Virus record (IMG/VR): IMGVR_UViG_3300033233_000168
Location: 1-23,257 of that record
Length of the DNA: 23,257 nucleotides
Direction: 5' to 3' (one strand)
Source: a virus
Shown here: one piece after another, positions 4,830 through 20,083 of the stretch
How the letters are laid out: each line of letters starts with the position of its first letter
How positions within the stretch are numbered: the first letter of the stretch is position 1
Notes under the pieces: generated by a model
Told to the model about the DNA's origin: nothing
Databases searched by the model: none
Seen by the model: only the letters and a program-made list of their open reading frames with translations
Position numbers and translations under genes: made by a program

Positions 4830-5251
4830 GAGCAAAACCTTTCCATGAATGTTGGTTCGTATTCAACCAAAACCGGCCTGGCCGCGCGCTGGCGGAACGC
4901 AAAGAAGCGTTTCACAAAGGGCCAGCGCCGCCGGGCCTGACGGAACATCTGCCGGCACGCCGCGCGCGTCCCTACCACTTCCCGCACCATCAAAGCTTCG
5001 CCCGGCGGAACCGGATGCCAGTTGAATTCCGCCGTTTCCGTTCCCGGTTGAAACGGCCACGCGAATCCCACGGCCTCAATCGCACCGCTTCCCGGTTCCC
5101 GGACGACGAATATCGTGCCAGCCAGCGCATGAAAACCCACATAAAGGAAAGTCGTGGTTCGACTCCAGCCACCGAAACACTTCCCCGCGTGGCCCAGGCA
5201 GAACTCCGTGACTTCGTGGACGCGCTCCCAAAATGGCTGTAATTCGTTCAT
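4826..5251 (-). CDS. Small virion-region protein, 141 aa, possibly GNAT-like (T7 gp13-position)
   Basis: ATG overlaps the upstream stop (ATGA), and the stop overlaps the next start (GTGA). The order of elements resembles a compact GNAT fold: an N-terminal helix (QPFWERVHEVTEFCLGHAGK), two beta strands with a turn (TIFVVREPGSGAIEAVGFAW), a later strand-helix containing VREVVGTRAACRQMFRQA, and a final PVLVEYEPTF strand. The usual acetyl-CoA loop (Q/RxxGxG/A) is not clearly present, so activity is doubtful. It lies between the tail nozzle-like gene and the ejection-like genes, exactly where T7 has gp13 (138 aa, small internal virion protein). I am confident it is a gene, less so of the GNAT resemblance. 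Confidence 0.75.
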   Translation of the reverse strand: MNELQPFWERVHEVTEFCLGHAGKCFGGWSRTTTFLYVGFHALAGTIFVVREPGSGAIEAVGFAWPFQPGTETAEFNWHPVPPGEALMVREVVGTRAACRQMFRQARRRWPFVKRFFAFRQRAARPVLVEYEPTFMERFCS

Positions 5252-6873
5252 GTTTCTTCGTTCAACGGGTTGATGAAAGCCGCCGCGCTCACGTTCTTCA
5301 ACCAGAACCAGCCGAATGGCGCCGCCGTCTCGATCTTCACATACGCCTCGTTGAAATCGATCAGTCCGCGGATGTTCTCCGTGATGGTGATGGGGCCGGA
5401 ACTCGCCAGCAGGAACGGCATGGTGCCTTCACCCAAAATGTCACCTTCCTGGGTGAATACGCCGGTCCAGTTCTTGATCTCAGCGTTGTCCGCAATCCAC
5501 GAAACCAGCACCGCGCTGTTGCCCGCGCTGAACTTCAGAATGGTGGTGTCGCCCGTTTTGGTCGTGATGGGCTCGTTGAAGAGCCAGCTCTTCGGCCATA
5601 CCTGCGTGGGATAGCCGACGGCGTTGTCCGTGTAGGTGCTGTCCTCTTTTTCCAACGTCGGCGTATCTTTCCACTGGTTCACGTAGCCGGTCGTGTCACC
5701 GAACACCAGTTTCGGGATGCCGAGGAAGCGGGTTACTTCCACACACAACCCGTTCCAGTTGGTCCATAACCCCAGCCACTTCCGCAACCGGCCATTCCAG
5801 ACGATTACCGCGTTGTTCGTCGCGCTCCCGTCGATGGGGACGAAGAAAAGCGCCAATTCCTGATACTTCTTCGCCGTGATGCCCGCCCAAGCCGACTGGT
5901 TGATCCGCGCGATGATGCTCTGGATCGGCTGGCTTAGGGTGTCGCCCAGTTCCCACTGGCCCGCCGCCGCCTGCATCCGTTGCACGCTCCGGATCCCGTC
6001 TTGGGCCATGAAAAGGATGTCGTTCCCGTAATTGCACCAAGCATCGCGACCGACACAGCCTATCCCCTCGGCAATCGGCGTCAGTTCCGCCGCGCTGAAA
6101 GCGCTGACCGTGCCGAAAAGTCCGTCTGAAACCGGGTTGGTGTCCACCAGCCAGATGGAATTGCGCTTGAGCACAGCCATGATATTCCCCTGCATCTTGC
6201 CAAGGGACACGATGGGATCCCCGTCACCGGTGCCGATCCGGAAACTGCGCTTCGTCCAGTCCCATTGGCCGGCAGAGAAGTCCAAGAGGTTGCTGACGTA
6301 GATGGTATCCGGAGCCGTGGCGCGCCCGGCGGCAAACATCCGGACCGTGTGCCACAGCAGAATGGTGGCGTCGCCAGGGCAATCGGCGTTCGTGCTGCCC
6401 GCCGCCGTGAATGCCGCGCCGTCGTAAATCGCCGCTTGGCCGTCGCCGTAAGCCAGCAGCAGCTTGTCGATGCCCTGCGCCATCGCCAGTTTGGCGTCCG
6501 CCGTGGGGGCAAAGCTGGCCGGCTTGGCCGCCGTAATGTCCGTCCACGCCCCCGCCTCATACTTGCCAATCCCGAAAGCCCCGGTGATGGTCAGGGCGGC
6601 AATAAGTTGGTGATAAGTCGGCGTGTCGAAATACTTGAGGCTCCGCGCCACTGTTGTTCCCAAAATGGGAAGCGTTGAAACCGTAGGGATTGCGTCCGCG
6701 CCGGGTCGCGTGCGCGCCTCGTAATTGTCCCGCACGAGCACGTTCAATAAGTGCTGGCATTGGTTGGGGTCGATCAGGGTGGACCGATGGAACGAGTTTT
6801 CCCCGCCGGAAAAGTCCTGTTGAAATTCCCAGCTTAGAACGTCGTCGAGTTGCTCATTTGATAATGATGGCAT
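5248..6873 (-). CDS. P22 gp10 / T7 gp12-like tail nozzle protein, 541 aa
   Basis: The N-terminal stretch around residues 21-58 (FSGGENSFHRSTLIDPNQ, then LLNVLVRDNYEARTRPG) is the type of opening seen in podoviral tail proteins of the P22 gp10 / tail tubular B group. The body contains repeated blades suggestive of a beta-propeller, for example LLLAYGDGQAAIYDGAAF, DTIYVSNLLDFSAGQWDW, NIMAVLKRNSIWLVDTN, NDILFMAQDGIRSVQRM, and NNAVIVWNGRLRKWLGLWTNW. Length is in the normal range for these proteins. It would form the distal tail tube/nozzle that plugs the portal-adaptor channel. It follows the adaptor-like gene by three bases and overlaps the next by ATGA. The exact subfamily is uncertain. Confidence 0.8.
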   Translation of the reverse strand: MPSLSNEQLDDVLSWEFQQDFSGGENSFHRSTLIDPNQCQHLLNVLVRDNYEARTRPGADAIPTVSTLPILGTTVARSLKYFDTPTYHQLIAALTITGAFGIGKYEAGAWTDITAAKPASFAPTADAKLAMAQGIDKLLLAYGDGQAAIYDGAAFTAAGSTNADCPGDATILLWHTVRMFAAGRATAPDTIYVSNLLDFSAGQWDWTKRSFRIGTGDGDPIVSLGKMQGNIMAVLKRNSIWLVDTNPVSDGLFGTVSAFSAAELTPIAEGIGCVGRDAWCNYGNDILFMAQDGIRSVQRMQAAAGQWELGDTLSQPIQSIIARINQSAWAGITAKKYQELALFFVPIDGSATNNAVIVWNGRLRKWLGLWTNWNGLCVEVTRFLGIPKLVFGDTTGYVNQWKDTPTLEKEDSTYTDNAVGYPTQVWPKSWLFNEPITTKTGDTTILKFSAGNSAVLVSWIADNAEIKNWTGVFTQEGDILGEGTMPFLLASSGPITITENIRGLIDFNEAYVKIETAAPFGWFWLKNVSAAAFINPLNEET

Positions 6874-6876
6874 CGC

Positions 6877-8103
6877 TCAAATCCAGAATCCACCGGAGCG
6901 GCCGGGGCCGAAATAGGCATCCCCCGCGCCACCGTCGGGGATGAAACGTGAATTATGCGCCGCTTGGACCGTCTCCAGCAAAGCCAGTTCCTTCAACAAC
7001 GCCGCGCCTTCCTGATAACACGCCTGCGCCTTGTTGATCTGCCGGCGCCGGTGCCACAGGTCGCCCAGCGCGAGCGCAATCAGGCAGTTGTCGAGGTTTT
7101 TGATCTCGGGTTCTTCAGAGTCGAGCGTCAGGGGCGTAAACTTCTTTTTCCCGAGCACCTTCAGCGTCGTTACAATGCTGGGAATGCTGAAGAGCCGGAT
7201 GCGCTGGTAACTCGGGCTGCGGGTGTCCTTCAAAGCCAGTGTTCCGCCAGCAGCTTCACCTGAAAATTGAGGGTTTAAGGAAAACTCCGAAGTGTCCGCC
7301 TTGAAAATGCTTTCGATCTCTATCCGGGCGTCGCCGGTCTTGGCCACGGTTGGCACGGGTAATGCCACCGCGCCCACTTTTACCCATGTTCCCAGCGGAA
7401 CTTGTAGAACGGCAGAGTCGCCCGCCAGTTCGATTTCATACTTCGGTTGGCCGTTGATAACAATGGTCCACCTTTGAAGCGTTGGGTTTATAACTTCAAC
7501 GCCGATGGCTGCCGTCGCGCTCTTCCGGTAGTAATACACGCCGTCTCCTTCATTGCCGTAAATGTAGGTTCCGTTGGCCGCCGCGGTTCCGGCACCGGAT
7601 ACAACCAACCCACCGTTGGGCGTATCGTCCAAGTAATTTACGGCGGTTAATGCCAGCGTGTCCACATGGCGAACGCCTGCGGTGTCGCGCCACGTGATCT
7701 TGGCGGTTCCTGTTGAAAGTTCCGTCTGAAGTCCGACGAAACCCCGCCACACAAACCAAACCGGGCTCAACAAGCTGAATTCGTAGGGCGCCCCGGTGTT
7801 GGTGAACTTGTCAAAATCCTGCCGGTAATAGTCCTCCAGTCCATGCACCCGGACGCTCCGGTCCGCCGTCCGGATGGCGACTACCCGGTCGATCACTTCC
7901 GGCAGCAACACAATCCCCTCGGCGTTGTCCGCGTTGGCGGGATCCACCACCACGTTCACCATGACCAGCGAATCCTTCCACAGATAGGAGTTGTAGATGA
8001 GTTCGTAGCGCTTCGAGAGGAACAGCTTCGCCGCCGCGATGTCGGCGGTGCCGATCATCTGGCCCTTCGTGCAAACGTAGCTGGTTAGATCAGCGAGGTT
8101 CAT
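6877..8103 (-). CDS. Head-tail adaptor / tail tubular A-like protein with inserted domain, 408 aa
   Basis: ATG at 8103 overlaps the upstream stop (ATGA); a longer in-frame extension upstream lies wholly inside the tail-fibre gene and is rejected. The N-terminal helical region (AAKLFLSKRYELIYNSYLWK, residues 24-43) and the C-terminal helix-rich end with ALGDLWHRRRQINKAQACYQE (about 355-375) look like podoviral adaptor or tail tubular A proteins. Residues about 163-245 look like an inserted domain: VVSGAGTAAANGTY, a VYYYRKSA strand, RWTIVINGQPKYEIE, and a final GTW. I recognise that pattern from other phage tail proteins. T7 gp11 is only about 196 aa, so the extra length is mostly this insertion. 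It lies directly upstream of the nozzle-like gene, the usual order. Role inferred. Confidence 0.75.
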   Translation of the reverse strand: MNLADLTSYVCTKGQMIGTADIAAAKLFLSKRYELIYNSYLWKDSLVMVNVVVDPANADNAEGIVLLPEVIDRVVAIRTADRSVRVHGLEDYYRQDFDKFTNTGAPYEFSLLSPVWFVWRGFVGLQTELSTGTAKITWRDTAGVRHVDTLALTAVNYLDDTPNGGLVVSGAGTAAANGTYIYGNEGDGVYYYRKSATAAIGVEVINPTLQRWTIVINGQPKYEIELAGDSAVLQVPLGTWVKVGAVALPVPTVAKTGDARIEIESIFKADTSEFSLNPQFSGEAAGGTLALKDTRSPSYQRIRLFSIPSIVTTLKVLGKKKFTPLTLDSEEPEIKNLDNCLIALALGDLWHRRRQINKAQACYQEGAALLKELALLETVQAAHNSRFIPDGGAGDAYFGPGRSGGFWI

Positions 8104-9296
8104 GGTCGGGCATAGACTTTGTAACGCCAATTTGCTGCCGTCGGGTTCATGTCCGTCCCGCTGCCCGTCGGAATGGCCGGCGAGGCGGAGTAACACCGGA
8201 TCACAATGTTGCTTGAATTGGCCGTCAACGAATAATTGCCAACGGTGTAAGATGACCGCAGCAGCCCCTCGATGGAAACCTCGTCGCCGGCGACAAAGGG
8301 CGAATCGTTCGTGAAACACAATAAAACCGCCCGCACCTGCGTGGGCGTCACGCCCAAGCCATGTGTAAACGTCCGCGTCACCGTCGAAAGAAAATTCGTG
8401 TTTGTGGAAACATACGACGTGACCGGCACCGCGTTCGTGAACCAGGCCAGCAACGCCCCCAACGTCATCGTATTGTTGGTGTGCTGCTGTTCGTCTTGAA
8501 ATGGAATCAGGTCGCCCGCCACCAGCGCCGTCACCGTGATGTTGTTTGTGAACAACAGGGTGTTGGTTCCGAAATAGAGGTTCGTGACTGGCGTAACCCC
8601 GAGAAACCCCCAGATGTTCGTTGCCAGATTGGTGCTCAAAAGTGTCTGCGGCTGGAACACCTGCCGATATACATGCGGCACGAGCTTGTTGGTGCCCAGA
8701 TTTCCGACCATGCCGTTCAGGAAATTTGAATAGGTGATCGAACATGGGTTGCCGTTGGTATCCCAGATCATGGTGAACGGCTGGTTGTTCGTGCTCGTCG
8801 GGTCCGGCACGCTCCCATACAGCGGTAGGTTCTGGCCGTTCGTCGTTGCGAACACCAGGTTGCTGACAATCACGCTGCCCGCGCTGCTGGCAATCAGGTT
8901 GGAGAACGCCACCTTGCCAAACACACCGTTGGTCGGGTCATACAGCAAAAACAGGTCATACCCCGCCACCGTCGTGTAAGTGCTCTGGTCCGTGATCAGA
9001 TGGTAGTTCTGTAGTAACGCTTGATTGCCATTCAACTTGTGGAACGTGCCTGACGAGCCAGACACGACAAGCATTGTGTCGCCCGCCACCAGATTGGTCT
9101 GCGACACCTTGCCCGTGTAGAACACCGGCTGGATGCTCGCATCGCTCACGAGTTGCAGCAGCTTGGCGGAAGTCAGCCGCTGGCCGTCCTGGATCTGGTT
9201 GGCCCCGGTGCCGATGGAGAGCCCCGGCGTGATGTCCGTGGCCAGCGCCGGCAGGGCCAACGACAACAGCAAGGTTAGAGTATTACGCATAAGCAT
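8100..9296 (-). CDS. Tail-fibre-like protein with N-terminal signal peptide, 398 aa
   Basis: The N-terminus is a clear Sec signal peptide: basic n-region (MLMRN), hydrophobic core TLTLLLSLALPALA, likely cleavage after ALA at about residue 19. A fibre-like region follows (GQRLTSAKLLQLVSDA near 38-53), then an Asn/Thr-rich body. Residues 307-368 contain THGLGVTPTQVRAVLLC and VAGDEVSIEGL, a C-terminal tail-fibre domain type I recognise from other phages. Start could be ATG 9296 or ATG 9290; both keep the signal peptide. It precedes the adaptor and nozzle genes, so host attachment is the best guess. A signal peptide is not expected on a virion protein assembled in the cytoplasm, which is the odd point here. 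Confidence 0.78.
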   Translation of the reverse strand: MLMRNTLTLLLSLALPALATDITPGLSIGTGANQIQDGQRLTSAKLLQLVSDASIQPVFYTGKVSQTNLVAGDTMLVVSGSSGTFHKLNGNQALLQNYHLITDQSTYTTVAGYDLFLLYDPTNGVFGKVAFSNLIASSAGSVIVSNLVFATTNGQNLPLYGSVPDPTSTNNQPFTMIWDTNGNPCSITYSNFLNGMVGNLGTNKLVPHVYRQVFQPQTLLSTNLATNIWGFLGVTPVTNLYFGTNTLLFTNNITVTALVAGDLIPFQDEQQHTNNTMTLGALLAWFTNAVPVTSYVSTNTNFLSTVTRTFTHGLGVTPTQVRAVLLCFTNDSPFVAGDEVSIEGLLRSSYTVGNYSLTANSSNIVIRCYSASPAIPTGSGTDMNPTAANWRYKVYARP

Positions 9297-9339
9297 ATTT
9301 TCTTGTTAACCGCTCAATCCCCGTCGTCCCCCGGCATGT

Positions 9340-9540
9340 TCAGCCCGTGGGAGGCTGGGAAGCCGGTTTGCTCGGTTGCCACGCCGCCGTCTTGAACATA
9401 GCTTCCTGCCGCGCGTCCAGCGCCGCCTCTTCCTCGGGCGTCAACTCGCCGCGCATCCGCTTCTCGTTCAAATACGCCAGTATCCGGTCGGTGATCGTCA
9501 TCGCCCCGTCGAGGATGGCGATGGCTTCGAGGATGGGCAT
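9340..9540 (-). CDS. Small helical protein, 66 aa
   Basis: Starts at ATG 9540, with AAGGAAG five bases upstream. A GTG at 9564 that overlaps the previous stop (GTGA) would give 74 aa and cannot be excluded. The sequence has a helical first part (PILEAIAILDGAMTITDRILAYLNEKRMRGELTPEEEAALDARQE) and a Pro/Ser-rich end. There is no membrane segment. It closes the presumed lysis region. I do not recognise the family. Confidence 0.65.
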   Translation of the reverse strand: MPILEAIAILDGAMTITDRILAYLNEKRMRGELTPEEEAALDARQEAMFKTAAWQPSKPASQPPTG

Positions 9541-9560
9541 GGTTTCTTCCTTTGGGTTGT

Positions 9561-10205
9561 TCACGTTGTTCCTTTCGGCTGGTAATAGTTCCGGGCCTGT
9601 TCCAACAAATCCTGCAAAGTCTTGATCGCCGCGCGTGTCGCATCGGCATTAGGCTCGTTCCGCAGCGCCTTGTAAGTCCGCGTGGCCGCCTTGAGTTCGC
9701 GCAGATACGCCGGCCCAAACTCCCGCACCAGATCCGCCGCCGCGGTCACGTCCTGGCCCACGGCCGCGCGGTTGCGGTATTCCCATTGCACAAAGGCATC
9801 CATCGAATCGCCGGCAGTTTGCGTCAACGCCTCGGCCTGCACTACGAGCGGGTCCGCCCCAGGCGCAATGCTCCCCTTCGGCACCAGGCAGCCCGTGGCG
9901 CCCAGTGTCAACGCCAGCAACCCGCCGATGATCCAGACGGGCGGACGAAACGGCGGCACGCTGCCACCGGCGGCGGGCGGATCATCCTCCGCTGGCGGGA
10001 TGGGTGATTGCTTCAGGTAGGCCAGCAGGCCCACGAGCGCCCCGCTCGCGAACAGCACCCCCACCTGTTTCAAATTCAAGCCGCCGATGTTCGCGCCCGC
10101 CGCGTCAGCGATGCCGATGCCAATGGCCGACATGCCGCTCGTGGCCCCGCCCGTAACGACGGCGGCGATCAGTCCGCGAATCCAGTTGTTCACTTTGTTT
10201 GTCAT
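9561..10205 (-). CDS. Holin-like membrane protein fused to a lipoprotein module, 214 aa
   Basis: Residues 7-66 resemble phage holin-type proteins: WIRGLIAAVVTGGATSGMSA, a second helix around KQVGVLFASGALVGLLAYLK, ending in the KQSPIP turn. A Pro/Asp-rich linker follows. Then VWIIGGLLALTLGATGC (90-106) has the form of a lipoprotein signal with lipobox ATGC at C106, and a helical charged domain of about 105 residues follows. An in-frame GTG at residue 83 (base 9959) preceded by GGTGG could start a separate 132-aa lipoprotein. The N-terminal part would permeabilise the inner membrane and the C-terminal part could act as an outer-membrane spanin-like lipoprotein. Both roles are inferred. An AAGG element lies 10 bases before the main ATG. 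Confidence 0.72.
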   Translation of the reverse strand: MTNKVNNWIRGLIAAVVTGGATSGMSAIGIGIADAAGANIGGLNLKQVGVLFASGALVGLLAYLKQSPIPPAEDDPPAAGGSVPPFRPPVWIIGGLLALTLGATGCLVPKGSIAPGADPLVVQAEALTQTAGDSMDAFVQWEYRNRAAVGQDVTAAADLVREFGPAYLRELKAATRTYKALRNEPNADATRAAIKTLQDLLEQARNYYQPKGTT

Positions 10206-10218
10206 GTTCGTTTGCCTT

Positions 10219-10428
10219 TCACTTCTCGATGATTTTACCCACCAGCCAGATGACCACCGCCGCGCCGCCCACGACGCCGGCGATCTTCACCGTCAAACTC
10301 TGCCGCCACTTTTCCAAGCTCGACACGCGCTGCATCAGTCCTTCCTCCTGGTAATTCTCATTACCGAGCAAGGCCCGTTTGATGTCTGCCACGTCCTGTT
10401 TAAGCTGTTCCATGTCGTTCGCGTCCAT
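10219..10428 (-). CDS. XhlA-like small membrane protein (holin accessory), 69 aa
   Basis: An N-terminal charged coiled coil (MEQLKQDVADIKRALLGNE, then QRVSSLEKWRQSL) is followed by a single C-terminal transmembrane helix (KIAGVVGGAAVVIWLVGKII) and a short basic tail. This arrangement and length match XhlA-type proteins that act with holins in phage lysis. It starts within the end of the preceding 66-aa gene (29-base overlap) and lies directly upstream of the holin-like/lipoprotein gene. Role inferred from architecture and neighbours. Confidence 0.75.
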   Translation of the reverse strand: MDANDMEQLKQDVADIKRALLGNENYQEEGLMQRVSSLEKWRQSLTVKIAGVVGGAAVVIWLVGKIIEK

Positions 10429-10600
10429 GTGCCCTTTCGCTGTTCATCCATTCGATTAACTGCGTCTCGCTCCAGAAGCGCCGCGCAAACTCCCGCATGT
10501 TCGCCGCCGCCGTCCGCATCTCCGCCAGCCGCCGTTCATTCCGCCGGTCCACCTGCTGCCCGTATTCGCGCAATAAACATTCCGGGTGGACCACGATCAT
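10400..10600 (-). CDS. Small basic helical protein, 66 aa
   Basis: Starts at the ATG that overlaps the stop of the 42-aa gene (ATGA at 10600-10597). A longer in-frame reading is rejected because that extension lies over the 42-aa and lipoprotein genes. The protein is rich in Arg and Glu with a long predicted helix (GQQVDRRNERRLAEMRTAAA) and no membrane segment. It sits in the chain of overlapping small genes leading into the XhlA-like gene, so it may belong to the lysis region. Family unknown. Confidence 0.65.
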   Translation of the reverse strand: MIVVHPECLLREYGQQVDRRNERRLAEMRTAAANMREFARRFWSETQLIEWMNSERAHGRERHGTA

Positions 10601-10725
10601 CGCCTCACCTTCCGCCTGAACTCGCGCAATGCCTCGCTGCCCTGCTTGGAAATTCCAAAACCACAGGCCAGCGCGGCGGCGAGCTTCACCGCGATCTGTT
10701 TCCACGTTGGTGCGGCTTTCGTCAT
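10597..10725 (-). CDS. Very small protein, 42 aa, one weak hydrophobic helix
   Basis: ATG at 10725 overlaps the lipoprotein stop (ATGA), and its own TGA overlaps the next ATG (ATGA), so it fills the gap between two better-supported genes exactly. It has a Lys/Trp start (MTKAAPTWKQ), a weakly hydrophobic helix IAVKLAAALACGFGI, and a basic end (REFRRKVRR). It could be a small membrane-associated protein. The main support is the perfect stop/start tiling; there is no recognisable family. Confidence 0.55.
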   Translation of the reverse strand: MTKAAPTWKQIAVKLAAALACGFGISKQGSEALREFRRKVRR

Positions 10726-11117
10726 CGCCGCACCCTTCCGTTGAAATCCGTGTGTTCCCCGTAGAACATGCCGGCGTAAAAGTCACAATTCGACACCACC
10801 ACCGGCACCGTGCGCGGCCAGTGCGTATTGCCCAGGCACACCCGCCAGTCATTCGTGCGCTCCCAAACCACGGACCACGGCCCCGTCACCACGTTGGAGT
10901 AGTAGATGCGGCTCTGCCGCTCCGGCACCACCTCGATGTAATCCATCGCCACCGTGATGGCGCCTGCCGTGGACCGCGAGCCGTCCCGGCTCGCGGCGGG
11001 TGGTTCAACCAGTGCATTACGCTGCTGTTCCTTAACTTTTCCGCCCAACGGATGCGCAAACCATGGCGCGGAACATCCGCACAGCAGCAGCAACAGACAT
11101 GAAAGGATGCGCGTCAT
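10722..11117 (-). CDS. Small predicted lipoprotein, 131 aa
   Basis: The N-terminus MTRILSCLLLLLCGC is a lipoprotein signal with lipobox LCGC, making Cys15 the acylated residue. The mature part has a polar Arg/Ser-rich linker, then strands around MDYIEVVPERQSRIYYS and VTGPWSVVWERTNDWRVC, ending FYGEHTDFNGRVRR. ATG overlaps the stop of the protease-like gene (ATGA). It would be anchored in the inner or outer membrane. Position just before the holin-like genes makes an outer-membrane spanin possible, but it lacks the Pro-rich look of Rz1 proteins. It may instead belong with the secreted proteins upstream. Confidence 0.72.
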   Translation of the reverse strand: MTRILSCLLLLLCGCSAPWFAHPLGGKVKEQQRNALVEPPAASRDGSRSTAGAITVAMDYIEVVPERQSRIYYSNVVTGPWSVVWERTNDWRVCLGNTHWPRTVPVVVSNCDFYAGMFYGEHTDFNGRVRR

Positions 11118-12295
11118 GGGTAGTAAACTGGATAGTCGCTCAAGTCGAAATACGTTGGCTGGTAGTCGTTTGTGTTGAGCCCAGCGGAAATGGTCATCGC
11201 GTTCATATCGTTGATGAAGTTCGTCGTGCTCAGAAGCGTCCCGCTTGTCCCCTGAAAGTTCACGAGGTTCGTTCCGTGAATAAAGAAGTCTGGGTTCCCG
11301 CTGTCACCGCCGACGTGCATCCCGTGGTTGTCGAAAATCAACATCCCTTGGCTACCGAACCTTCCGTGCTGGCAGGTTTCAAACCACGCTTCCGGAAAGT
11401 TGATGCTCGTCTTTCCAGTCGGCATCTTCGCAAAGAAATTCGTGCTCACACACACTTTGATTGGTTGAACCGTGCTTGGCAGGTCTGCGTTGAAAAATAC
11501 AATGCAGTAATCGTCCTGAGTCAGTGCGTTGAGATTGCGCGAACGACAGTCAGTAACGAACATCGAGTTCGTCGCGCCGTCGCTCCCTACAAAATAAACA
11601 TATCCGTTCGTCGAGTTCCCTCCGAAGACGTGGCCAGCAGAGTAGGCGTGCCGTTTCGTTATCGCTGTGAACTTCCAAGGGAAGCCATTGTTGCCTTGAA
11701 GCGAAGTCATCTGAGACAACGCGGTGTATCCGTGTTTGCCGAAGATGACAGAGTTCGTGTGCCACTTCCACCCGTTCGCGGCGATGGAGTCCCAAAGAAT
11801 TCCGTCACGCCCCGCGTTCGTGATCGCAACGATGTTCGTGTAAAGATCGTTCGCCAAGGTTCCCGAGACGAAGTTAGAGAACGTGTTGATCGTCGCGCCG
11901 CCGGTAGTTGTTCCGATGCTCAAAGAACCGGCACACGCAACATCGAATCCGTTCGTGTTGCGAAGCGAATAGCGATACCGGAACACGCCGTTCGTCTTGT
12001 AAATCGTTCGACCACCGGTGAACTCGGCAACGTCCGGCGTAAAGTTGTCGAACCCGATGAACGTATAGTTCGATGCAGCCGTGAATGAGTATTGATCTCC
12101 TGTCGTCGCTCCGGTCAGCGTCGTCACTGAATAGACAACTCCAACGTTCGTGTTAGGCCATGAGACGTTCGTCGAAGCTGCATTAGCCAGGACAGGCCCA
12201 TCGCCGACGCTCGTTATGGTCGGGATGACGCCCTGGTCCTTGAAGGAGCTTCCCAAGAACGACGCGACTGCCGCCGCTATCAAAAAGAATTTCAT
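11114..12295 (-). CDS. Secreted protein with chymotrypsin-like triad motifs, 393 aa
   Basis: A short signal-like N-terminus (MKFFLIAAAVASFLGSS) is followed by an Asn/Thr-rich beta region to about residue 200. Then come three motifs in the order of the S1/chymotrypsin fold: a His motif AITKRHAYSAGHVF (His222, compare TAAHC), an Asp motif TQDDYCIVFF (Asp261/262, compare the nDIALLKL strand) and a Ser motif VGGDSGNP (Ser332, compare GDSGGP). The gaps of about 40 and 70 residues are somewhat shorter than in trypsin (45 and 93). Cysteines at 250, 264, 282 and 308 could form disulfides, which fits export. Start overlaps the previous stop by one base (TGATG). It could be an active protease or a degenerate protease fold used in attachment; I cannot tell which. 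Confidence 0.75.
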   Translation of the reverse strand: MKFFLIAAAVASFLGSSFKDQGVIPTITSVGDGPVLANAASTNVSWPNTNVGVVYSVTTLTGATTGDQYSFTAASNYTFIGFDNFTPDVAEFTGGRTIYKTNGVFRYRYSLRNTNGFDVACAGSLSIGTTTGGATINTFSNFVSGTLANDLYTNIVAITNAGRDGILWDSIAANGWKWHTNSVIFGKHGYTALSQMTSLQGNNGFPWKFTAITKRHAYSAGHVFGGNSTNGYVYFVGSDGATNSMFVTDCRSRNLNALTQDDYCIVFFNADLPSTVQPIKVCVSTNFFAKMPTGKTSINFPEAWFETCQHGRFGSQGMLIFDNHGMHVGGDSGNPDFFIHGTNLVNFQGTSGTLLSTTNFINDMNAMTISAGLNTNDYQPTYFDLSDYPVYYP

Positions 12296-13275
12296 CAGCG
12301 GAGAATTTGAATGTTACCCCGAAGGCCGGTGGCGTTCGTGTTGAAATCGTTTGTCGTCAGCGCCGTGATATTGAAGACATAACCCGGAGCCACGGCGGTC
12401 AATGCAGAGCCGGTCTTGGTGAAGTTTTGAGAGGTAACGAGGACGCAATTCGATGTTCCGAAGAACCCGGAGCTCGCATTCACCGCGTTGAACTTCGGCG
12501 CTGTGAAAGAGAAGAACAAGTTAGTGCTGCCACTCCCGCTCCCGGACGTGGGTTTCATTGACAAGCTCTGCCGAGCCGAGACGTAGAACTCATTGACCAC
12601 ATTTGAATAAGTCCCGGTTGTTGTCCTGAAAGTCATACCGCCGGAAAGTTTGTCGCAACTATAGTAGATTTGATTCGAGAAGTTCAGCCCGTTGTAGGCC
12701 GCAGTCTCAAAGACGACACCCGCTGCTGTAGCGATTTGTCCTTCCTTAACATCAATCAACGCGAAGCAATTCGTCGCTCCATATAAGGTGACGAGATCGT
12801 TCGTGTGCGTAAGCCTGCCAGAGATGTAAAGCGAGGTGGTTGAGTTAGTCGCACCGAGAAAGAACGGTATCGCGCTACTTCCTGAGAGAAAAGTGCCGTC
12901 GTTGAAATACCAATTAACGCCCTGCTTGCCGAGGCCGCTCTCCGAGAACGTCCCGCGCACCGCATAGATCGTCTGGCCGTTCGTTGCGATGGTCTGGGCT
13001 TTGGTCAATGTCGCGTAAGGCCGCGAGGATGAGCCGGTGCCCGTGGTATCACTTCCACTAACCGCATCTACATAAATCACGTTCAAAGACAACGATGCCA
13101 CCCCCACCCACCCCGCCAGCGTCGCCGGCGTGACGGGGTTAATGGCGTTCACGCCCGCGTTCACTTCCGCCTGGGTCGCCGGGTTCGCGCCCGCGTTCGG
13201 TCCGGTCTGGATTCCGGCGCCGCACAACAATGGCAGTGACAGCAGCGTGGCCAGCGTGGCAATTATCGTTTTCAT
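12295..13275 (-). CDS. Tail-spike-like protein with signal peptide and DUF1565-like beta-helix start, 326 aa
   Basis: A hydrophobic signal sequence (MKTIIATLATLLSLPLLCGAG) opens the protein; Cys18 is followed by Gly but preceded by Leu, so a lipobox is doubtful. Next comes a phage-fibre motif, ATQAEVNAGVNAINPVTPATL (33-53). Then IYVDAVSGSDTTGTG plus RPYATLTKA (67-93) follows, the hallmark of DUF1565/pectate-lyase-type right-handed beta-helices. The remaining 230 residues are Ser/Thr/Asn/Gly-rich strands consistent with a beta-helix or fibre. The ATG is four bases after the upstream stop. Fibre motif plus beta-helix suggests a receptor-binding or glycan-degrading spike, but no catalytic residues could be assigned. 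The combination with a secretion signal is unusual. Confidence 0.75.
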   Translation of the reverse strand: MKTIIATLATLLSLPLLCGAGIQTGPNAGANPATQAEVNAGVNAINPVTPATLAGWVGVASLSLNVIYVDAVSGSDTTGTGSSSRPYATLTKAQTIATNGQTIYAVRGTFSESGLGKQGVNWYFNDGTFLSGSSAIPFFLGATNSTTSLYISGRLTHTNDLVTLYGATNCFALIDVKEGQIATAAGVVFETAAYNGLNFSNQIYYSCDKLSGGMTFRTTTGTYSNVVNEFYVSARQSLSMKPTSGSGSGSTNLFFSFTAPKFNAVNASSGFFGTSNCVLVTSQNFTKTGSALTAVAPGYVFNITALTTNDFNTNATGLRGNIQILR

Positions 13276-13279
13276 GGCG

Positions 13280-13666
13280 TCAATTCTTCTTCAGCACCTG
13301 GATGCTCACCGCCGCCGGCGCCAGCCCCAGCGTAGCCGCGTTCGTGCTCACCTTGACCACGCACGCATCAAGGTCCACGCCGTTCAATCCGAGGTCGAGG
13401 CTGTAATAGCCCGCCTGCGGCACGGGAAAGCTGAAGGTTGGCGTCGCGCCATTCGTGGCCCCCGCCGAGGTCTGGAAAATCTGGATGTAGTTCGTCCCCG
13501 TCACGGACGAGTTGTAGCCCAGCACGCTGTAAACCTTGCAGGGCGCCGTGCTGACGGTCAGTGAGTTGGTCAGCGCCGCGTTGCCACGGACGCCCACCGG
13601 TTGGTTCTGTGCCGCCATTGGCAGCGCCAAGGCCAGCAGGAAGAGGATGAGAAAGGGAGTTTTCAT
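13280..13666 (-). CDS. Secreted beta-rich protein, 128 aa
   Basis: ATG at 13666 overlaps the upstream stop (ATGA); a GTG nine bases upstream is less likely. The signal peptide is clear: MKTPFLILFLLALALPMAAQ, with cleavage near MAA-Q. The mature part is a run of strands typical of a small jelly-roll or immunoglobulin-like domain (KVYSVLGYNSSVTGTNYIQ, then FPVPQAGYYSLDLGLNGVDL) with two cysteines that could pair. I have a sense of similar NSS..YIQ..F...PVP patterns in small phage head-region proteins, but cannot name a family. It could be a decoration or surface protein. Confidence 0.7.
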   Translation of the reverse strand: MKTPFLILFLLALALPMAAQNQPVGVRGNAALTNSLTVSTAPCKVYSVLGYNSSVTGTNYIQIFQTSAGATNGATPTFSFPVPQAGYYSLDLGLNGVDLDACVVKVSTNAATLGLAPAAVSIQVLKKN

Positions 13667-13857
13667 ATGTTCCACGTCTTTTTGAGTTGTTTTACCGAGA
13701 AACCCGCCTGCCGGGCGATACTCCCGGCAGACTGGGTTTGTTCAAGTTGCTTCAGCGCCCGGGGTATGGCCACGTCCGGGCTCGTGGGATCCTTGGACCC
13801 TTTGAACCCGGGCGCCTTCCCGCTGGCAATGATTTCCGCAATTCGGCCCATGATCAC
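13663..13857 (-). CDS. Small protein with possible helix-turn-helix end, 64 aa
   Basis: GTG at 13857 overlaps the previous stop (GTGA); ATG at 13851 would give 62 aa. The stop overlaps the next ATG. The N-terminal half is a Gly/Lys/Pro-rich region (SGKAPGFKGSKDPTSPD), and the C-terminal SAGSIARQAGFSVKQLKK resembles a helix-turn-helix. It is too short to be sure of DNA binding. A strong inverted repeat lies inside its coding sequence. Function unknown. Confidence 0.6.
   Translation of the reverse strand: MIMGRIAEIIASGKAPGFKGSKDPTSPDVAIPRALKQLEQTQSAGSIARQAGFSVKQLKKTWNI
13700..13739 (-). other. Two-part hairpin inside the 64-aa gene
   Basis: CTGCCGGG (13708-13715) pairs fully with CCCGGCAG (13723-13730) around a 7-base loop. 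After a small internal loop, AAACCC (13700-13705) pairs with GGGTTT (13734-13739). It ends 34 bases before the start of the secreted 128-aa gene and has no U-tract, so it is more likely an RNA structure affecting translation or decay than a terminator. Confidence 0.55.
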
Positions 13858-14195
13858 ATTCCGGCCTGCACGGCCATGGAGCGCAAATCCGCGCCTTCCT
13901 GCATTTCGTTGTCCGGCGCCGGTTCGGCGGCTTCATCGTCGATGGGATTGCCATTCACCGCGCTGACTTTCACGTAGGCGGTTTCGCCCTCGATCCGGGT
14001 CACGGTGGCGTCCACCGTGAAAGTGACCGCATCGCCTTCCGCCGGCGTCTGCACCTGTTCCTTGTCATCCGGCTGGGCCAGTGACTTCAGGGGCACGGCA
14101 ACTTCGCCCGCTTGGGCGGTTGGCATCGCCGGCATCGGGGCCGGTTCGGCGCCCTCGTCGGGGATGGTGGGTAATTGATCTTCTTCGCCTAACAT
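13854..14195 (-). CDS. Acidic, Pro/Ala-rich small protein, 113 aa
   Basis: The first 45 residues are Glu/Pro/Ala-rich and probably disordered. Residues about 55-85 form a compact beta pattern (DAVTFTVDATVTRIEGETAYVKVSAVNG), and the end is acidic again. ATG at 14195 lies after a strong hairpin in the 65-base gap; the stop overlaps the next start (GTGA). There is no signal peptide, unlike its neighbours. Size, acidity and position after the capsid gene would suit a head-completion or decoration role, but I do not recognise a family. Confidence 0.65.
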   Translation of the reverse strand: MLGEEDQLPTIPDEGAEPAPMPAMPTAQAGEVAVPLKSLAQPDDKEQVQTPAEGDAVTFTVDATVTRIEGETAYVKVSAVNGNPIDDEAAEPAPDNEMQEGADLRSMAVQAGM

Positions 14196-14209
14196 ATTGG
14201 TTTCTTTCA

Positions 14210-14240
14210 GGCGCCCGGCTGGTGGCCAGTCCCGGGCGCC
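14210..14240 (-). other. Strong GC-rich intergenic hairpin
   Basis: GGCGCCCGG (14210-14218) pairs with CCGGGCGCC (14232-14240). Inside it CTGG (14219-14222) pairs with CCAG (14226-14229), leaving a three-base loop and a two-base bulge. It lies between the 215-aa secreted-protein gene and the 113-aa gene. No U-run follows on the minus strand, so factor-independent termination is doubtful; mRNA end protection, a processing site or partial attenuation is more likely. Confidence 0.65.
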
Positions 14241-14260
14241 GCTTAGGGTTCAGAATTCCG

Positions 14261-14908
14261 TCACTGGCCGGCGCTGAAGAAACGGGCACACGCCCCGTTG
14301 ATGCTGCTGTTGGTCCCGCCGGTGATTTCAAACACGAGCGGTTTGCCCGGTTCGCCGGCGTAAATACCGGGACCGTTCAGTTCCTTGGTCGCCACGCCAA
14401 CCGGGATGTTACCACTTGTGGTGAGCGGCCAGATAACGTCTTGAAGGGCGTTGGTGGTCGCCACCGTGGTGACAAGGTTGGTTCCACTCACAGCGGCACC
14501 GAGGATACGTCGGTCGAACAATCCGGTTGCCTTGTGGTAGATCAGGATGATGCCGCCGTTGGTATTGAACCCGGATGCGGCCTGCGTCATCGAGTTCGTG
14601 ATGTTCACGTATGCCGTGGTGCCCAGGTTGGTGTTGTTCACAAAGCACGGTTTACCGGCTGTGTAGAACTGAACCTTGCCCGCGGCGGTATCGCTCGTGG
14701 CATTGATATAGGTCAGCACTGGCAGGGCGGGCGTGACGCTGGCGGGAACTGCCTTCCCGGTGTGCGGCACCACGGCCCAACTGAGTGTGCCCGTTCCGTT
14801 GCCGACGCCCGCCCAGATGCCAGTGTCGGCAGCGTGAACCGGTTCGGTGATGAGGAATGAAGCCACGGCCAGGCAGGCCGCGGCGAGGATGTTCAGAGTC
14901 TTTTTCAT
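14261..14908 (-). CDS. Secreted protein encoded directly after the capsid gene, 215 aa
   Basis: ATG at 14908 is chosen because the protein then begins with a perfect signal peptide (MKKTLNILAAACLAVASFL, cleavage after VHA at about residue 26). A TTG at 15001 would add 31 polar residues in front of it and overlap the capsid stop, which is less likely. The mature protein is Thr/Asn/Gly/Val-rich beta structure (TLSWAVVPHTGKAVPASVTP; VFEITGGTNSSINGACARFF at the end). Strong hairpins on both sides suggest it has its own mRNA segment. The place after the major capsid protein is where decoration proteins are often found, but a signal peptide does not fit that. Family unknown. Confidence 0.7.
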   Translation of the reverse strand: MKKTLNILAAACLAVASFLITEPVHAADTGIWAGVGNGTGTLSWAVVPHTGKAVPASVTPALPVLTYINATSDTAAGKVQFYTAGKPCFVNNTNLGTTAYVNITNSMTQAASGFNTNGGIILIYHKATGLFDRRILGAAVSGTNLVTTVATTNALQDVIWPLTTSGNIPVGVATKELNGPGIYAGEPGKPLVFEITGGTNSSINGACARFFSAGQ

Positions 14909-14946
14909 ACGTTTGTCAGATTTGAATTTCAGTTTTGGTTTTGGTT

Positions 14947-14968
14947 GGGGCGGGATTGCTCCCGCCCC
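14947..14968 (-). other. Perfect 9-bp hairpin with GCAA tetraloop downstream of the capsid gene
   Basis: GGGGCGGGA (14947-14955) and TCCCGCCCC (14960-14968) pair without mismatch around a four-base loop that reads GCAA in the minus-strand RNA, a stable GNRA type. It begins 25 bases after the capsid stop. The following RNA is A/C-rich with no U-run. Likely roles are protection of the capsid mRNA 3' end or attenuation that lowers downstream expression. Confidence 0.7.
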
Positions 14969-14993
14969 TTCAATCAATTCGCGCTTGGTTGGC

Positions 14994-16136
14994 TTAGACA
15001 AACGTGCTCTTGCAGCGGGCCACGACGAGCCGCGGGGTGTCCGTCGTCTCGTTGGTTTTCAGCAGGCCCGCCTGGTAAAACGCCTTCCAGCCGAAGGTGG
15101 TTTTCTGGTTCAGGGGATCCGCCTTGTCCGCCTTGTCGAGGATGATCATGCTCGGCGCCTTGGGATCCGAGCCCGCCCGCATCCCGCTCAGTTTCGGGAC
15201 GCCGAAGGCTTCGGCCCCGAGGTAGAGACAGGCGTAGATGTTGTCGGACACCGTATCGCTCGGCGCATAGATGCCGTAGCCGGTGGACTGCTCGATGAAC
15301 GGCGACTGGTTCTCGAAGAACCGGCAGCCGTCCAGCTCGAATTCAACCCACTGGTCCAGCGTGCCCGCAGCCCGGTTGTTGTTGTAGATGGCCGAGGCAA
15401 TCCACGTGGCTTCCTGGCGGAGGTCCGCCATGATCTCGGGCGGCAACCCGCACATATACTTGCCGTTGATCATCGGGACGCCGGGCTTGCCCGCCACGCC
15501 CTTGAGGCGGGTCACGCAGCCGATGTGAAAGGCGCGCGTGAACTTGGCGTTGCTGTTCGACAACGCCGCCAGGGTGGCGAAGTCGTTCGCGCTGTTCAAC
15601 GTGTTCGCCACGCCGGCAAAGCGCTCAAAGCTGCCGTTCGAGTTGAACATGGTCGCCTGCGCGGCCGGGATTGAGTTGGGAGTGCCATCCGCGTCCGCCA
15701 CGCCAGGGCTGGAGCAAATCGCGTGCGAACACACGAAATCGAAGTCCAGCGCCGCGTCCGCCGCCATCGTCTTGGTGTTGATCTGGAGCGTGTCAAACAG
15801 GTCAACCGCCCGGGTGATGTCCGAAACACTGGACAGGTCGCCGCGCTGCTTGAGCTGGATGTCCACGTAACCGATCGGGGCACCCTCGGTTTCGTCCGGC
15901 GGCAGGCTTTCGCTCAGCGCGCGGGGTCCGCTGGTGGCCGTGCCCTTCTTCGCGCGACGCGGCCGGAAGAACCGGATGGTGTCGCCCGCCGAGTTGGCCG
16001 GGAGTTCCTTCGCCACACCGAAGGTGCCGAGACGAAGGTTGTAAATCAGCTCCTTCAGGAGCTGACGTGAAAAGTATTTCTGCTGACGATCCGCAAAATC
16101 CGCCGGAGCGGTTGTAAGAATTTTGGCTGCGCCCAT
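14994..16136 (-). CDS. Major capsid protein, N4-gp56-like family, 380 aa
   Basis: The N-terminal pattern is that of the N4 gp56 group: TTAPADFADRQQKYFSRQLL (8-27), KELPANSAGDTIRFFRPRR (43-61) and, after a variable loop, GYVDIQLKQRGDLSSVSDI (89-107), with helix VDLFDTLQINTKTMAADAALD (111-131). Length is typical of HK97-fold capsid proteins. It directly follows a scaffold-like gene and precedes a strong hairpin, as expected for the most heavily expressed structural gene. No clear Shine-Dalgarno sequence lies before the ATG. The protein would assemble the icosahedral shell. The family call rests on motif reading; the capsid role is well supported by order and length. Confidence 0.85.
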   Translation of the reverse strand: MGAAKILTTAPADFADRQQKYFSRQLLKELIYNLRLGTFGVAKELPANSAGDTIRFFRPRRAKKGTATSGPRALSESLPPDETEGAPIGYVDIQLKQRGDLSSVSDITRAVDLFDTLQINTKTMAADAALDFDFVCSHAICSSPGVADADGTPNSIPAAQATMFNSNGSFERFAGVANTLNSANDFATLAALSNSNAKFTRAFHIGCVTRLKGVAGKPGVPMINGKYMCGLPPEIMADLRQEATWIASAIYNNNRAAGTLDQWVEFELDGCRFFENQSPFIEQSTGYGIYAPSDTVSDNIYACLYLGAEAFGVPKLSGMRAGSDPKAPSMIILDKADKADPLNQKTTFGWKAFYQAGLLKTNETTDTPRLVVARCKSTFV

Positions 16137-16165
16137 AGTTCAGGCGCGAAGGCGTTACCGGTCCC

Positions 16166-17257
16166 CTAGCCCATTGCCACCGCTGTGTTCCGCAGACTGG
16201 CGCCCTCTTCCTCGTCGGTTTTGGGCGTGTCGTGTTGCAGATTGGCGGGGGCACTGGTGCCGCCGCCGGGCGATGTAAGAGCTTCGAGTTCCTTAACCTT
16301 CGCTCTCAGTTCGCCCAGTTCTTTATTCAGTCCTGGCACACAAGCGGCCGCAGCTTCCGCCGCTGTCAACCGCGCCGCATGGTAGATCAACACCGGATGG
16401 TCCTTCACTTCCAGTCCCGACTGCCGGGCCGCCTGGATGTGGGCTACCACCGTCTTGTTGAGTTCGGATCCCTGCTTGAACACGTCGGGCCAGCGTTTGT
16501 TGGCTTCCATCGTGTAATCCCGCAACGACTGTTGCCGGGACTGTTCGAGCTTGGCCGCGTCCGGGTCGGGGTTCTCACGCTTGTGTTGCGCCTCGGCCTT
16601 CAACTGGCCGGCCAACTCTTCGTGATAGGCTGCCTTCTTGCGCAGTCCTCCGGCATCCGAGCGCAACCGCTTTGCCTCGTCATACCGGTCCGCCTCTTCC
16701 GCCGCCGCCGCCCGCTTCTCAAGTCCGTCCGCCTGTAGTTCGAGCGTGGCCGCCTTCTCCGCGTTGACCGCACTCCCTTGTTCATACTGTTCCGGGGTGT
16801 AACGGTTCGCGGCTTTGGCTCGTTCCTGCTCGAATTGCTGACGTTCCCGGGCATGATAGTCGCGCTCGGCCTTGAATTGATCGCGCTCCTGTTGAAACGC
16901 GCTCTTTTCCTCGTTCAACTTCTTCCAACTGTCATCACGCCGGGCTTTGTCGCGGGCAAACGAATCTTTCGCTGGGGCCGCCGCAGGTCTGTCCCCGGGT
17001 TTCGGGGCTTCTGCGGTCGGGGAATCCTCTACCTTGGGCGTGGCTGTCGCGTTTGGATCAGCCGCCGCTTGTGTGCCGTCTGGTAAATCACCGGGCTTTG
17101 CTTCTGCCGGTTTGGGCTGAGACTCCGGTTGACGAGTCTGGGCTTCAACCTCCCGCTGTTCGAACGCTTCTGTCGGTGGTGGAGTCTCCGCGGATTCCGC
17201 GGCATCCAACAGCTTCATGGCGTCAGCCACATCGGGTAATTCAGCTATTCCGGGCAT
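16166..17257 (-). CDS. Scaffold-like protein, 363 aa
   Basis: Residues 1-95 are Pro/Glu/Ala-rich and probably disordered. Residues about 100-250 form a long charged coiled coil (KLNEEKSAFQQERDQFKAER, RQQFEQERAKAANRY, KAATLELQADGLEKRAAAAEE). The C-terminal third has helices and another short coiled coil (NKELGELRAKVKELEAL, about 310-327) and ends in a disordered tail. This composition and the position directly before the capsid gene are standard for a phage scaffolding protein, which organises procapsid assembly and then leaves. There are no protease motifs, so self-processing is not indicated. The start ATG is eight bases after the upstream stop. Confidence 0.82.
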   Translation of the reverse strand: MPGIAELPDVADAMKLLDAAESAETPPPTEAFEQREVEAQTRQPESQPKPAEAKPGDLPDGTQAAADPNATATPKVEDSPTAEAPKPGDRPAAAPAKDSFARDKARRDDSWKKLNEEKSAFQQERDQFKAERDYHARERQQFEQERAKAANRYTPEQYEQGSAVNAEKAATLELQADGLEKRAAAAEEADRYDEAKRLRSDAGGLRKKAAYHEELAGQLKAEAQHKRENPDPDAAKLEQSRQQSLRDYTMEANKRWPDVFKQGSELNKTVVAHIQAARQSGLEVKDHPVLIYHAARLTAAEAAAACVPGLNKELGELRAKVKELEALTSPGGGTSAPANLQHDTPKTDEEEGASLRNTAVAMG

Positions 17258-17265
17258 AGGCTTGG

Positions 17266-17682
17266 TTAGAACGATCGACGGAATTCAACCGGCATGGCGT
17301 CGTCCTGTGCGCCACCGGTTGTATCGGTTTTTGCGGCTGTATCGCCAGCCGCTTGCGAAAGCATCTTGTCACTGGCCAGATTGAACTGGAACAGGAGCAT
17401 TTGATTCATCCCGTAAGCCTGGGGGCTGCCGCTGTCGCCGGCGCACTCCTTCAGGGAAGCAACGTGAATCTCGCTGCCACAGACTTTGACCAGCTTCCGG
17501 CCCGTCTGACTGGAAAGGAACGAACGGAGCGCCATCACGTCCGACTGTTCCCACTCTTCGAACTCAGGCAGAATCTCGAACTTGGCCGGACGTGGTTGCG
17601 CCGCCGGAGATGGTTCCGGCGGCGCTTCGACACGGTTGCGCAGTTTCAACCACTTGCAGAATGATTGGAACAAGTTGCGCAT
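17266..17682 (-). CDS. Head-region small protein, 138 aa
   Basis: A basic start (MRNLFQSFCKWLKLRNR) leads to a Pro-rich linker. A compact middle follows (FEEWEQSDVMALRSFLSSQT, then RKLVKVCGSEIHVASLKECA), then a Met/Gln-rich helix and a Thr/Gly/Asp-rich end. The middle part, with YGMNQMLLFQFNLASDKMLS, recalls the small helical proteins often encoded between portal and scaffold that may contact capsid or portal, but I cannot name a family. It lies six bases after the preceding stop and eight bases before the scaffold gene. Confidence 0.72.
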   Translation of the reverse strand: MRNLFQSFCKWLKLRNRVEAPPEPSPAAQPRPAKFEILPEFEEWEQSDVMALRSFLSSQTGRKLVKVCGSEIHVASLKECAGDSGSPQAYGMNQMLLFQFNLASDKMLSQAAGDTAAKTDTTGGAQDDAMPVEFRRSF

Positions 17683-17688
17683 GACGAC

Positions 17689-18132
17689 TTACGATTGCCG
17701 CCGGCGCCGCTGTTTGTCAACAGGTTTCAGCGCCGTGGGTTCATCTTCCACCAAAGCTTTCGCCCGCTCGATGTCCTCGGCGGTAGCCGGAGAGGAATCC
17801 ACGGCGCGTGGTGATTCAGACGCTTCCGCTTGAGCCATGCGCTTATCCTCTTCGATCTGCCGTTGCTCGGCTTCCTCTTGCAGCCGCTTGCTCTCCGCAA
17901 TCTGGTCGAGGCGGTTGCGCTCAGCTTGGGTGGCGCGCGCTTCGCCGTCCCGTTGAATGTCCTCAAGATTCACTTCGGTGGGGAACGTGAACCCGGTTTT
18001 CTTCGCCGGATCGTCGAACACGATGACGATGTTGTCCCCGTCCAGCACCGTGCTGTTCACGTGATGATTGGGCGGCAGGGCGTCGTAAATACGGTTCAAC
18101 ATCAGCGGCAGGACAAGTTTGAAAAGACTCAT
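17689..18132 (-). CDS. Head-region coiled-coil protein, 147 aa
   Basis: ATG overlaps the portal stop (ATGA). The first 55 residues are hydrophobic and globular (SLFKLVLPLMLNRIYDALPP; DNIVIVFDDPAKKTGFTFP). They are followed by a Glu/Arg/Gln coiled coil (ERNRLDQIAESKRLQEEAEQ) and a basic tail ending RRRRQS. There is no enzyme motif. Coupling to the portal gene suggests a role in head assembly. Family unknown. Confidence 0.75.
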   Translation of the reverse strand: MSLFKLVLPLMLNRIYDALPPNHHVNSTVLDGDNIVIVFDDPAKKTGFTFPTEVNLEDIQRDGEARATQAERNRLDQIAESKRLQEEAEQRQIEEDKRMAQAEASESPRAVDSSPATAEDIERAKALVEDEPTALKPVDKQRRRRQS

Positions 18133-20008: not shown

Positions 20009-20083
20009 TGGTTGCAGGGGTTGGAATTGAACCAACGACCTCAAGGTTATGAGCCTAGCGAGCTTCCACTCCTCCACCCTGCA
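20009..20083 (-). tRNA. tRNA with CAU anticodon, initiator-like (fMet-type)
   Basis: A complete 75-nt cloverleaf is encoded including the terminal CCA. The acceptor stem TGCAGGG/CCCTGCA has 7 pairs, with T1 opposite A72. The anticodon loop is CTCATAA. The T stem GTTGG/CCAAC is perfect with loop TTCAATT. Initiator-like features are A11:U24 in the D stem, the D-arm and variable-loop text shared with bacterial tRNA-fMet (GGTCG after the anticodon arm), a weak 1:72 position, and two of the three G:C pairs at 29-31/39-41 (A29:U41, G30:C40, G31:C39). Odd points are mismatches at 13:22 and 28:42, and U1:A72 in place of the usual C1xA72 mismatch. It is probably a phage-carried initiator or an elongator-Met/Ile variant. 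It sits in an 97-base gap between the terminase and portal genes. Confidence 0.92.

Follow-up and report, generated by a model that had tools for sequence, protein, structure and literature searches.

The leader block

The window analysed here, a 23,257-base virus record (IMG/VR record IMGVR_UViG_3300033233_000168) that does not belong to any larger assembly and has every gene on the minus strand, contains a block of genes between the capsid and tail genes whose products carry predicted export leaders. Its virion genes run in the order small and large terminase, tRNA-Met, portal, scaffold-like, capsid, leader block, tail-tube-like, nozzle-like and two ejection-like genes, several of these role names (for example tail-tube-like and nozzle-like) being derived from position or size alone. 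As no long-tail gene is recognisable in the window, we infer a podovirus-like particle. Central to the block is sp398 (8100..9296, minus strand, as are all genes below), which encodes a tail-fibre-type protein with the Sec leader MLMRNTLTLLLSLALPALA^TDITPG, overlaps the tail-tube-like gene just after it, and has leaderless syntenic homologs that are tail fibres. Judged from sequence comparison, the presence of export signals on such tail-fibre-type proteins is a real, conserved and unusual trait of the clade to which this phage belongs.

Five further leaders accompany sp398. The 215-amino-acid protein sp215 (14261..14908), encoded directly after the capsid gene, carries the Sec leader MKKTLNILAAACLAVASFLITEPVHA^AD and belongs to a family confined to the clade, with a leader in each member found. 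Sec leaders also begin sp128 (13280..13666; 128 amino acids) and the spike/fibre-type protein sp326 (12295..13275), which occupies a variable receptor-binding-like slot and matches a tail protein family (phrog_4577, 3e-6) and, weakly, DUF1565, with a beta-helix-like start. The 393-amino-acid sp393 (11114..12295) has the weakest leader (MKFFLIAAAVASFLGSS-FKDQ), and its distal part has a weak resemblance to a protein, itself without a leader, of a verrucomicrobial prophage tail module. This was the one weak match of sp393 in 368 verrucomicrobial genomes, and a host origin of the fibre genes was rejected. The predicted lipoprotein lp131 (10722..11117; 131 amino acids; MTRILSCLLLLLCG^C) has its lipobox cysteine in LCG^C behind a hydrophobic leader; in relatives the comparable slot holds small exported or lipoprotein genes.

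Leaders were called by a rule-based program that looks for a positive n-region, an uncharged hydrophobic core, small residues at −3/−1 and no long transmembrane segment. Its strict version identified Sec leaders in sp215, sp128, sp326 and sp398 and a lipoprotein leader in lp131, while sp393 meets a looser rule only. The features of Sec export and signal peptidase I cleavage (n-region charge, hydrophobic core, small −3/−1 residues) are therefore present by these rules, albeit weakly in sp393. The caller returned no leader outside the block in the window; with g214 (see below) left out, six leaders fall on 6/11 genes inside the block versus 0/16 outside (Fisher p=0.0016), and whole-protein shuffles of the cassette proteins gave a false-call rate of 0.7%. 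The original prediction had placed Sec leaders on all five of these proteins (215, 128, 326, 393 and 398 amino acids), which is clear for four of them and holds for the 393-amino-acid protein under the looser but not the strict rule. The open reading frames (ORFs) lie where it had put them, all on the minus strand, and its lipoprotein of 131 amino acids is likewise predicted here.

The sequences of sp128, sp215 and sp398 themselves gave nothing reliable in Pfam, PHROGs or PDB sequence searches. AlphaFold modelled sp128 as a beta-sandwich (predicted local distance difference test score, pLDDT, 86) and sp215, with low confidence, as a beta-rich protein (pLDDT 67). Foldseek matches of the AlphaFold models were set aside as unspecific jelly rolls with a query TM-score below 0.5.

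A leader ahead of a tail-fibre N-terminus

Profiles of the mature part only were searched against all ORFs of related contigs. A leader is present in 13/13 clade members in which sp398 was seen, whereas the homologs in eight sister contigs are leaderless and mostly begin 'MP-DLSRGHTY', 'MP-DLTGGTTF' or 'MS-DINRGFTF'. The cut regions of the clade read '...ALA^T-DITPG', '...IRA^Q-DITAG', '...ASA^G-DITPG' and '...LDA^Q-DLTQG', so the cut site aligns with the sister starts and the predicted signal peptidase product corresponds to the N-terminus of the leaderless homolog. On this alignment, the sp398 leader is an add-on ahead of an ordinary fibre N-terminus. A plausible cleavage site precedes the conserved module in nearly every sp398 sequence, with small residues at −3/−1 recurring directly ahead of it. 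By these comparisons the leaders are real, conserved and predicted to be cleavage-competent, and their predicted cut falls exactly where the leaderless syntenic tail-fibre homologs start.

The order portal-scaffold-capsid-...-sp398-tail tube-nozzle is identical in clade and sisters, which makes sp398 and the leaderless proteins positional orthologs. The latter match tail-fibre PHROGs (28766, 892, 863; up to 1e-22) and tail fibres of cultured cyanophages (S-CBP4 tail fibre). The homology of sp398 to known tail fibres is thus indirect, via these leaderless homologs, and the matches lie partly outside the shared N-terminal module. The expectation that two of the exported proteins carry tail-fibre or beta-helix motifs agrees with these matches for the 398-amino-acid family and with those described above for sp326.

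On a capsid tree made with a quick method and left unrooted, the sp398 leader state changes once (13 with, 8 without), and the deep split has a Shimodaira–Hasegawa-like approximate likelihood ratio test (SH-aLRT) value of 92. Although such a tree gives no direction, a gain in the clade rather than a loss is the natural reading, since ordinary phages lack such leaders. Conservation in sp398 is highest right behind the cut, as would be expected of a mature protein that continues to dock to the tail. In L009, L017 and L034 (L-numbers denote related loci), the leader ATG is followed by no further start codon before the sp398 module, so translation of the fibre in these necessarily includes the leader. 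The clade shares no internal start, and a leaderless isoform made from one was discarded on that ground. Charged residues make up 9.2% of leader-bearing and 16.7% of leaderless sp398 proteins, and 7.5% versus 12.9% for sp128, in comparisons that ignore kinship; by this measure the versions with a leader resemble secreted proteins in their low charge. Searches against isolate phages with tblastn gave no match to sp398, and for the major capsid protein (MCP) only matches of ~24%, from gut contigs without the block.

Recurrence in related contigs

Relatives were gathered by capsid, fibre and nozzle searches, and the clade around the window spans capsid identities of about 35-90%. Downstream of the capsid gene, the strict caller found leaders on 45/186 genes in 17 clade contigs versus 0/147 in the sisters (p=4e-13); upstream, the counts were 3/84 and 7/218, respectively. 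The clade has at least these 45, since several visible leaders, for example those of sp398 in L044 and sp128 in L004, escaped the simple gene caller. The block therefore recurs in relatives, the survey that the original prediction had proposed as a check. The leaders occupy the same gene positions throughout the 17 contigs and are thus not due to chance, and this recurrence is better evidence than the counts within the window. Orthologs of the sp398 family retain leaders even though residue identity within the leader is only about 21-47%; the residues drift while hydrophobicity and the cut site persist. Synonymous sites were saturated or nearly so in most compared pairs.

Apparent leaders in L093-L114 (MRPKTATIMVIAV... 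and MKNTKTTLAGVG...) were judged to be false positives, namely a g113-family N-terminus and a holin-like transmembrane segment, and these loci were excluded from the leader counts. A more distant contig, L086 (MCP about 28%), has a run of leader-bearing genes at 12237-19127 in which sp398 is not recognisable. The leader trait may be wider than the clade, or may have arisen twice.

Homologs of sp128 carry a leader in 10 cases and lack one in 29, with three changes of state on the same capsid tree; the leaderless homologs occupy the same place in sister phages. In the spike slot (the sp326 position), a leader is present in 11/11 tabulated contigs, and the start is conserved while the distal parts are swapped or unrelated among relatives. 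Receptor-binding slots evolve in this manner, keeping a leader and short motif while exchanging distal parts. In L007 the slot encodes a GDSL lipase that also matches a tail fibre. In L006, a further protein with a leader, with LamG-like and virion-protein matches, is encoded inside the tail-tube gene; on L020 (the L006 contig) the inserted LamG-like gene splits the tail-tube-like gene into two ORFs (8409-11313). The additional leader-bearing protein of L004 looks by eye like a calcineurin-type phosphoesterase, with no family search confirming this. Exported proteins of ~200 amino acids lie by the lysis genes in L006 (5460-6086), L007 (12032-12625), L017 (6872-7465) and L019 (6282-6905); they are outer-membrane-like by eye and might act in outer-membrane lysis or in exclusion.

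Other genes of the block and its surroundings

Between lp131 and sp398 lie g69 (10219..10428), a lysis-type protein with a coiled coil and one C-terminal transmembrane segment (phrog_5225, function unknown, 6e-5; homolog in L004), and g214 (9561..10205). The latter fits its earlier description as a holin-like part plus a lipobox: a holin-like N-terminal half is fused to a lipoprotein half, in which a second transmembrane segment is followed by a borderline lipobox, ATG^C. The two halves occur as stand-alone genes in L007 (11790-12035) and L086 (12237-12707). Exported accessory and lysis proteins are frequent in late operons, and lp131, g69 and g214 for this reason call for no special explanation.

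The small helix-turn-helix-like ORF g64 (13663..13857) overlaps the sp128 start with its end, and in relatives directly precedes sp128 or sp398. Such ORFs overlap the start of either gene in clade contigs, have an FmdB-like start in some relatives, and in L021 (7147-8514) and L022 (7818-9068) form an in-frame fusion with sp398; a similar ORF lies ahead of the leaderless fibre in L048 (14426-14749). Perhaps g64 is a fibre chaperone.

The block is flanked by leaderless genes. The MCP (14994..16136) matches the major head protein family phrog_1357 (2e-17), which may correspond to the N4-gp56 capsid family. The small leaderless protein g113 (13854..14195) adjoins the capsid gene and has hidden Markov model matches downstream of the MCP in clade and sisters. 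On the other side lie ttA (6877..8103), tail-tube-like by position, and g541 (5248..6873), which matches phrog_5107 (1.5e-15) and phrog_578 (head closure, 0.05) and is called nozzle-like from position and synteny. The tRNA-Met (CAT; 20009-20083), between the terminase and portal genes, is 87-88% identical to stretches of two ~635 kb phage records.

Host and distribution

The clade member L011, apparently the same virus as L008, sits in a metagenome bin named Verrucomicrobia, and the best isolate matches of the large terminase (TerL) are to Akkermansia phages (27-33%). A distant provirus in a genome of the same phylum (L118/L119; genome G102, 254.6-kb contig) has a related terminase (28%), portal (24%) and nozzle-like gene; none of its genes from capsid to nozzle was seen to carry a leader. 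The members of the clade are thus likely phages of soil Verrucomicrobia, although this assignment is indirect. In the verrucophage P8625, SignalP found no signal peptide in 52 proteins (PMC4642752). The Akkermansia phages Chambord and Chantilly lack the block, and the rule-based caller found no leaders on their annotated structural proteins; its one call on the Chantilly terminase is likely false. T7 has no comparable block, and control phages gave isolated calls on transmembrane or spanin proteins. The suggestion that phages of this host group have an undescribed system thus holds for one clade of podovirus-like contigs, but is not general to Verrucomicrobia phages, because P8625, Chambord and Chantilly lack the block.

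Proposed export and assembly

The leaders strongly suggest that the block proteins are exported and trimmed, and docking of the fibres to the virion at lysis is what we infer from the retained N-terminal module and the preserved gene position. We propose that fibre/spike-type virion proteins gained cleavable Sec signal peptides in one podovirus-like clade, are exported, and dock at lysis, a reading to which we assign a probability of about 0.48. In late infection, fibre and spike proteins would be made with a leader and then exported by Sec, and signal peptidase I would restore the ancestral N-terminus (...A^xDITPG). The mature fibres would accumulate in the periplasm until holin and endolysin open the envelope, when cytoplasmic virions would encounter concentrated fibres and the N-terminal fibre module would dock to the tail. 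A broader version, in which assembly takes place in two compartments, with tail fibres and a conserved head-proximal protein passing through Sec and virions completed outside the cytoplasm at or after lysis, is slightly less probable. Several points weigh against the proposal: export, cleavage and attachment at lysis are all read from sequence, the leader calls come from one rule-based program, the charge comparison leaves relatedness aside, and the host assignment is indirect. Moreover, several clade members have sp128 without a leader, and no precedent was found for post-lysis fibre docking in tailed phages.

In the main rival reading, the exported proteins have ceased to belong to the virion and act in the periplasm or outer membrane, much like the envelope proteins T5 Llp or those of the lambda Lom type. 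They would either mask receptors, so preventing superinfection and the loss of progeny to debris, or degrade surface polymer before lysis. Delivery to the periplasm is what Sec export provides, the same operon holds lipoproteins and exported beta-rich proteins, and the cargo includes enzymes such as the GDSL lipase. Yet the best conserved part of sp398 is the module common to leaderless tail fibres, gene order beside the tail genes is maintained, and the leaderless sp128 of several clade members is hard to accommodate. If all fibres went to the envelope, the virion would also need other receptor-binding proteins, for which the sole candidate is g167 (a short-tail-fibre match). We consider such an envelope function unlikely, though it is the strongest competitor of docking at lysis. 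Among the three options of the original prediction, assembly of fibres through the periplasm is accordingly the best supported, by the leader right before the leaderless-fibre N-terminus and by the conserved part behind the cut; coating of the host surface is kept as a rival, but leaves retention of the N-terminal module unexplained, and plain Sec export stops in the periplasm.

The third option, an uncut leader serving as a membrane anchor or targeting segment, on the virion or for tail assembly at the inner membrane, is improbable. Weak cut sites in some leaders (sp393 and others) would suit it, but conserved cleavage sites, with small −3/−1 residues recurring right before the sp398 module, disfavour it, and the fibres of sister phages do without an anchor. 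Hydrophobic N-termini without any role in export (chance or neutral extensions, or prediction artefacts) are more improbable still: the use of a rule-based caller only, with its isolated calls on transmembrane and spanin proteins in control phages, leaves some room for them, but none of 147 outgroup genes was called, leaders occur in several gene families, the mature parts are low in charge, and the leader start codon is obligatory in several contigs.

Comparison with known systems

Tailed phages are regarded as assembled wholly in the cytoplasm, lysis doing no more than release them. If the proposed docking at lysis is correct, receptor-binding proteins would be held apart from the particles until lysis, which bears on fibre folding and on how new particles avoid the receptors of their own host. 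Because leaders come and go on proteins that are otherwise orthologous, nature has supplied an experiment by which the question can be tested. The literature searched, which omits most subscription journals and is therefore weak evidence of absence, contained no report of tailed-phage tail fibres with Sec leaders. Published statements point in the opposite direction: the hypervariable target proteins that phages encode are without signal peptides (PMC6199706), and genomes of lytic rumen phages each encode 0-2 signal peptides (PMC5723332). P8625, Chambord and Chantilly, with hosts in the same phylum as the presumed host, have no leaders on structural proteins; P8625 is a siphovirus, whereas the window phage is podovirus-like.

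Virion proteins with Sec-type signal peptides are familiar from filamentous phages (coat proteins pIII and pVIII), but these are unrelated virions extruded through the membrane, whereas the window phage is a tailed double-stranded DNA phage with holin-like genes. T5 Llp and lambda Lom and Bor are signal-peptide or lipobox proteins encoded in or near late genes, and lp131 is of this kind; they are accessory envelope proteins and, unlike sp398, not tail-fibre homologs. The closest comparison is with ordinary podovirus tail fibres, of which T7 gp17 is the textbook example. Those of S-CBP4 and PHROGs 28766, 892 and 863 match the leaderless sp398 homologs, whose genes occupy the corresponding site ahead of those for the tail tube and nozzle, and sp398 likewise lies beside the tail genes in clade and sisters. 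Ordinary fibres have no signal peptide, a usual rather than strictly defining property, and assemble in the cytoplasm, whereas sp398 of the clade has a Sec leader ahead of the same N-terminus in 13/13 cases. Tail fibres as such are known; the assembly route proposed here would, if shown, be new.

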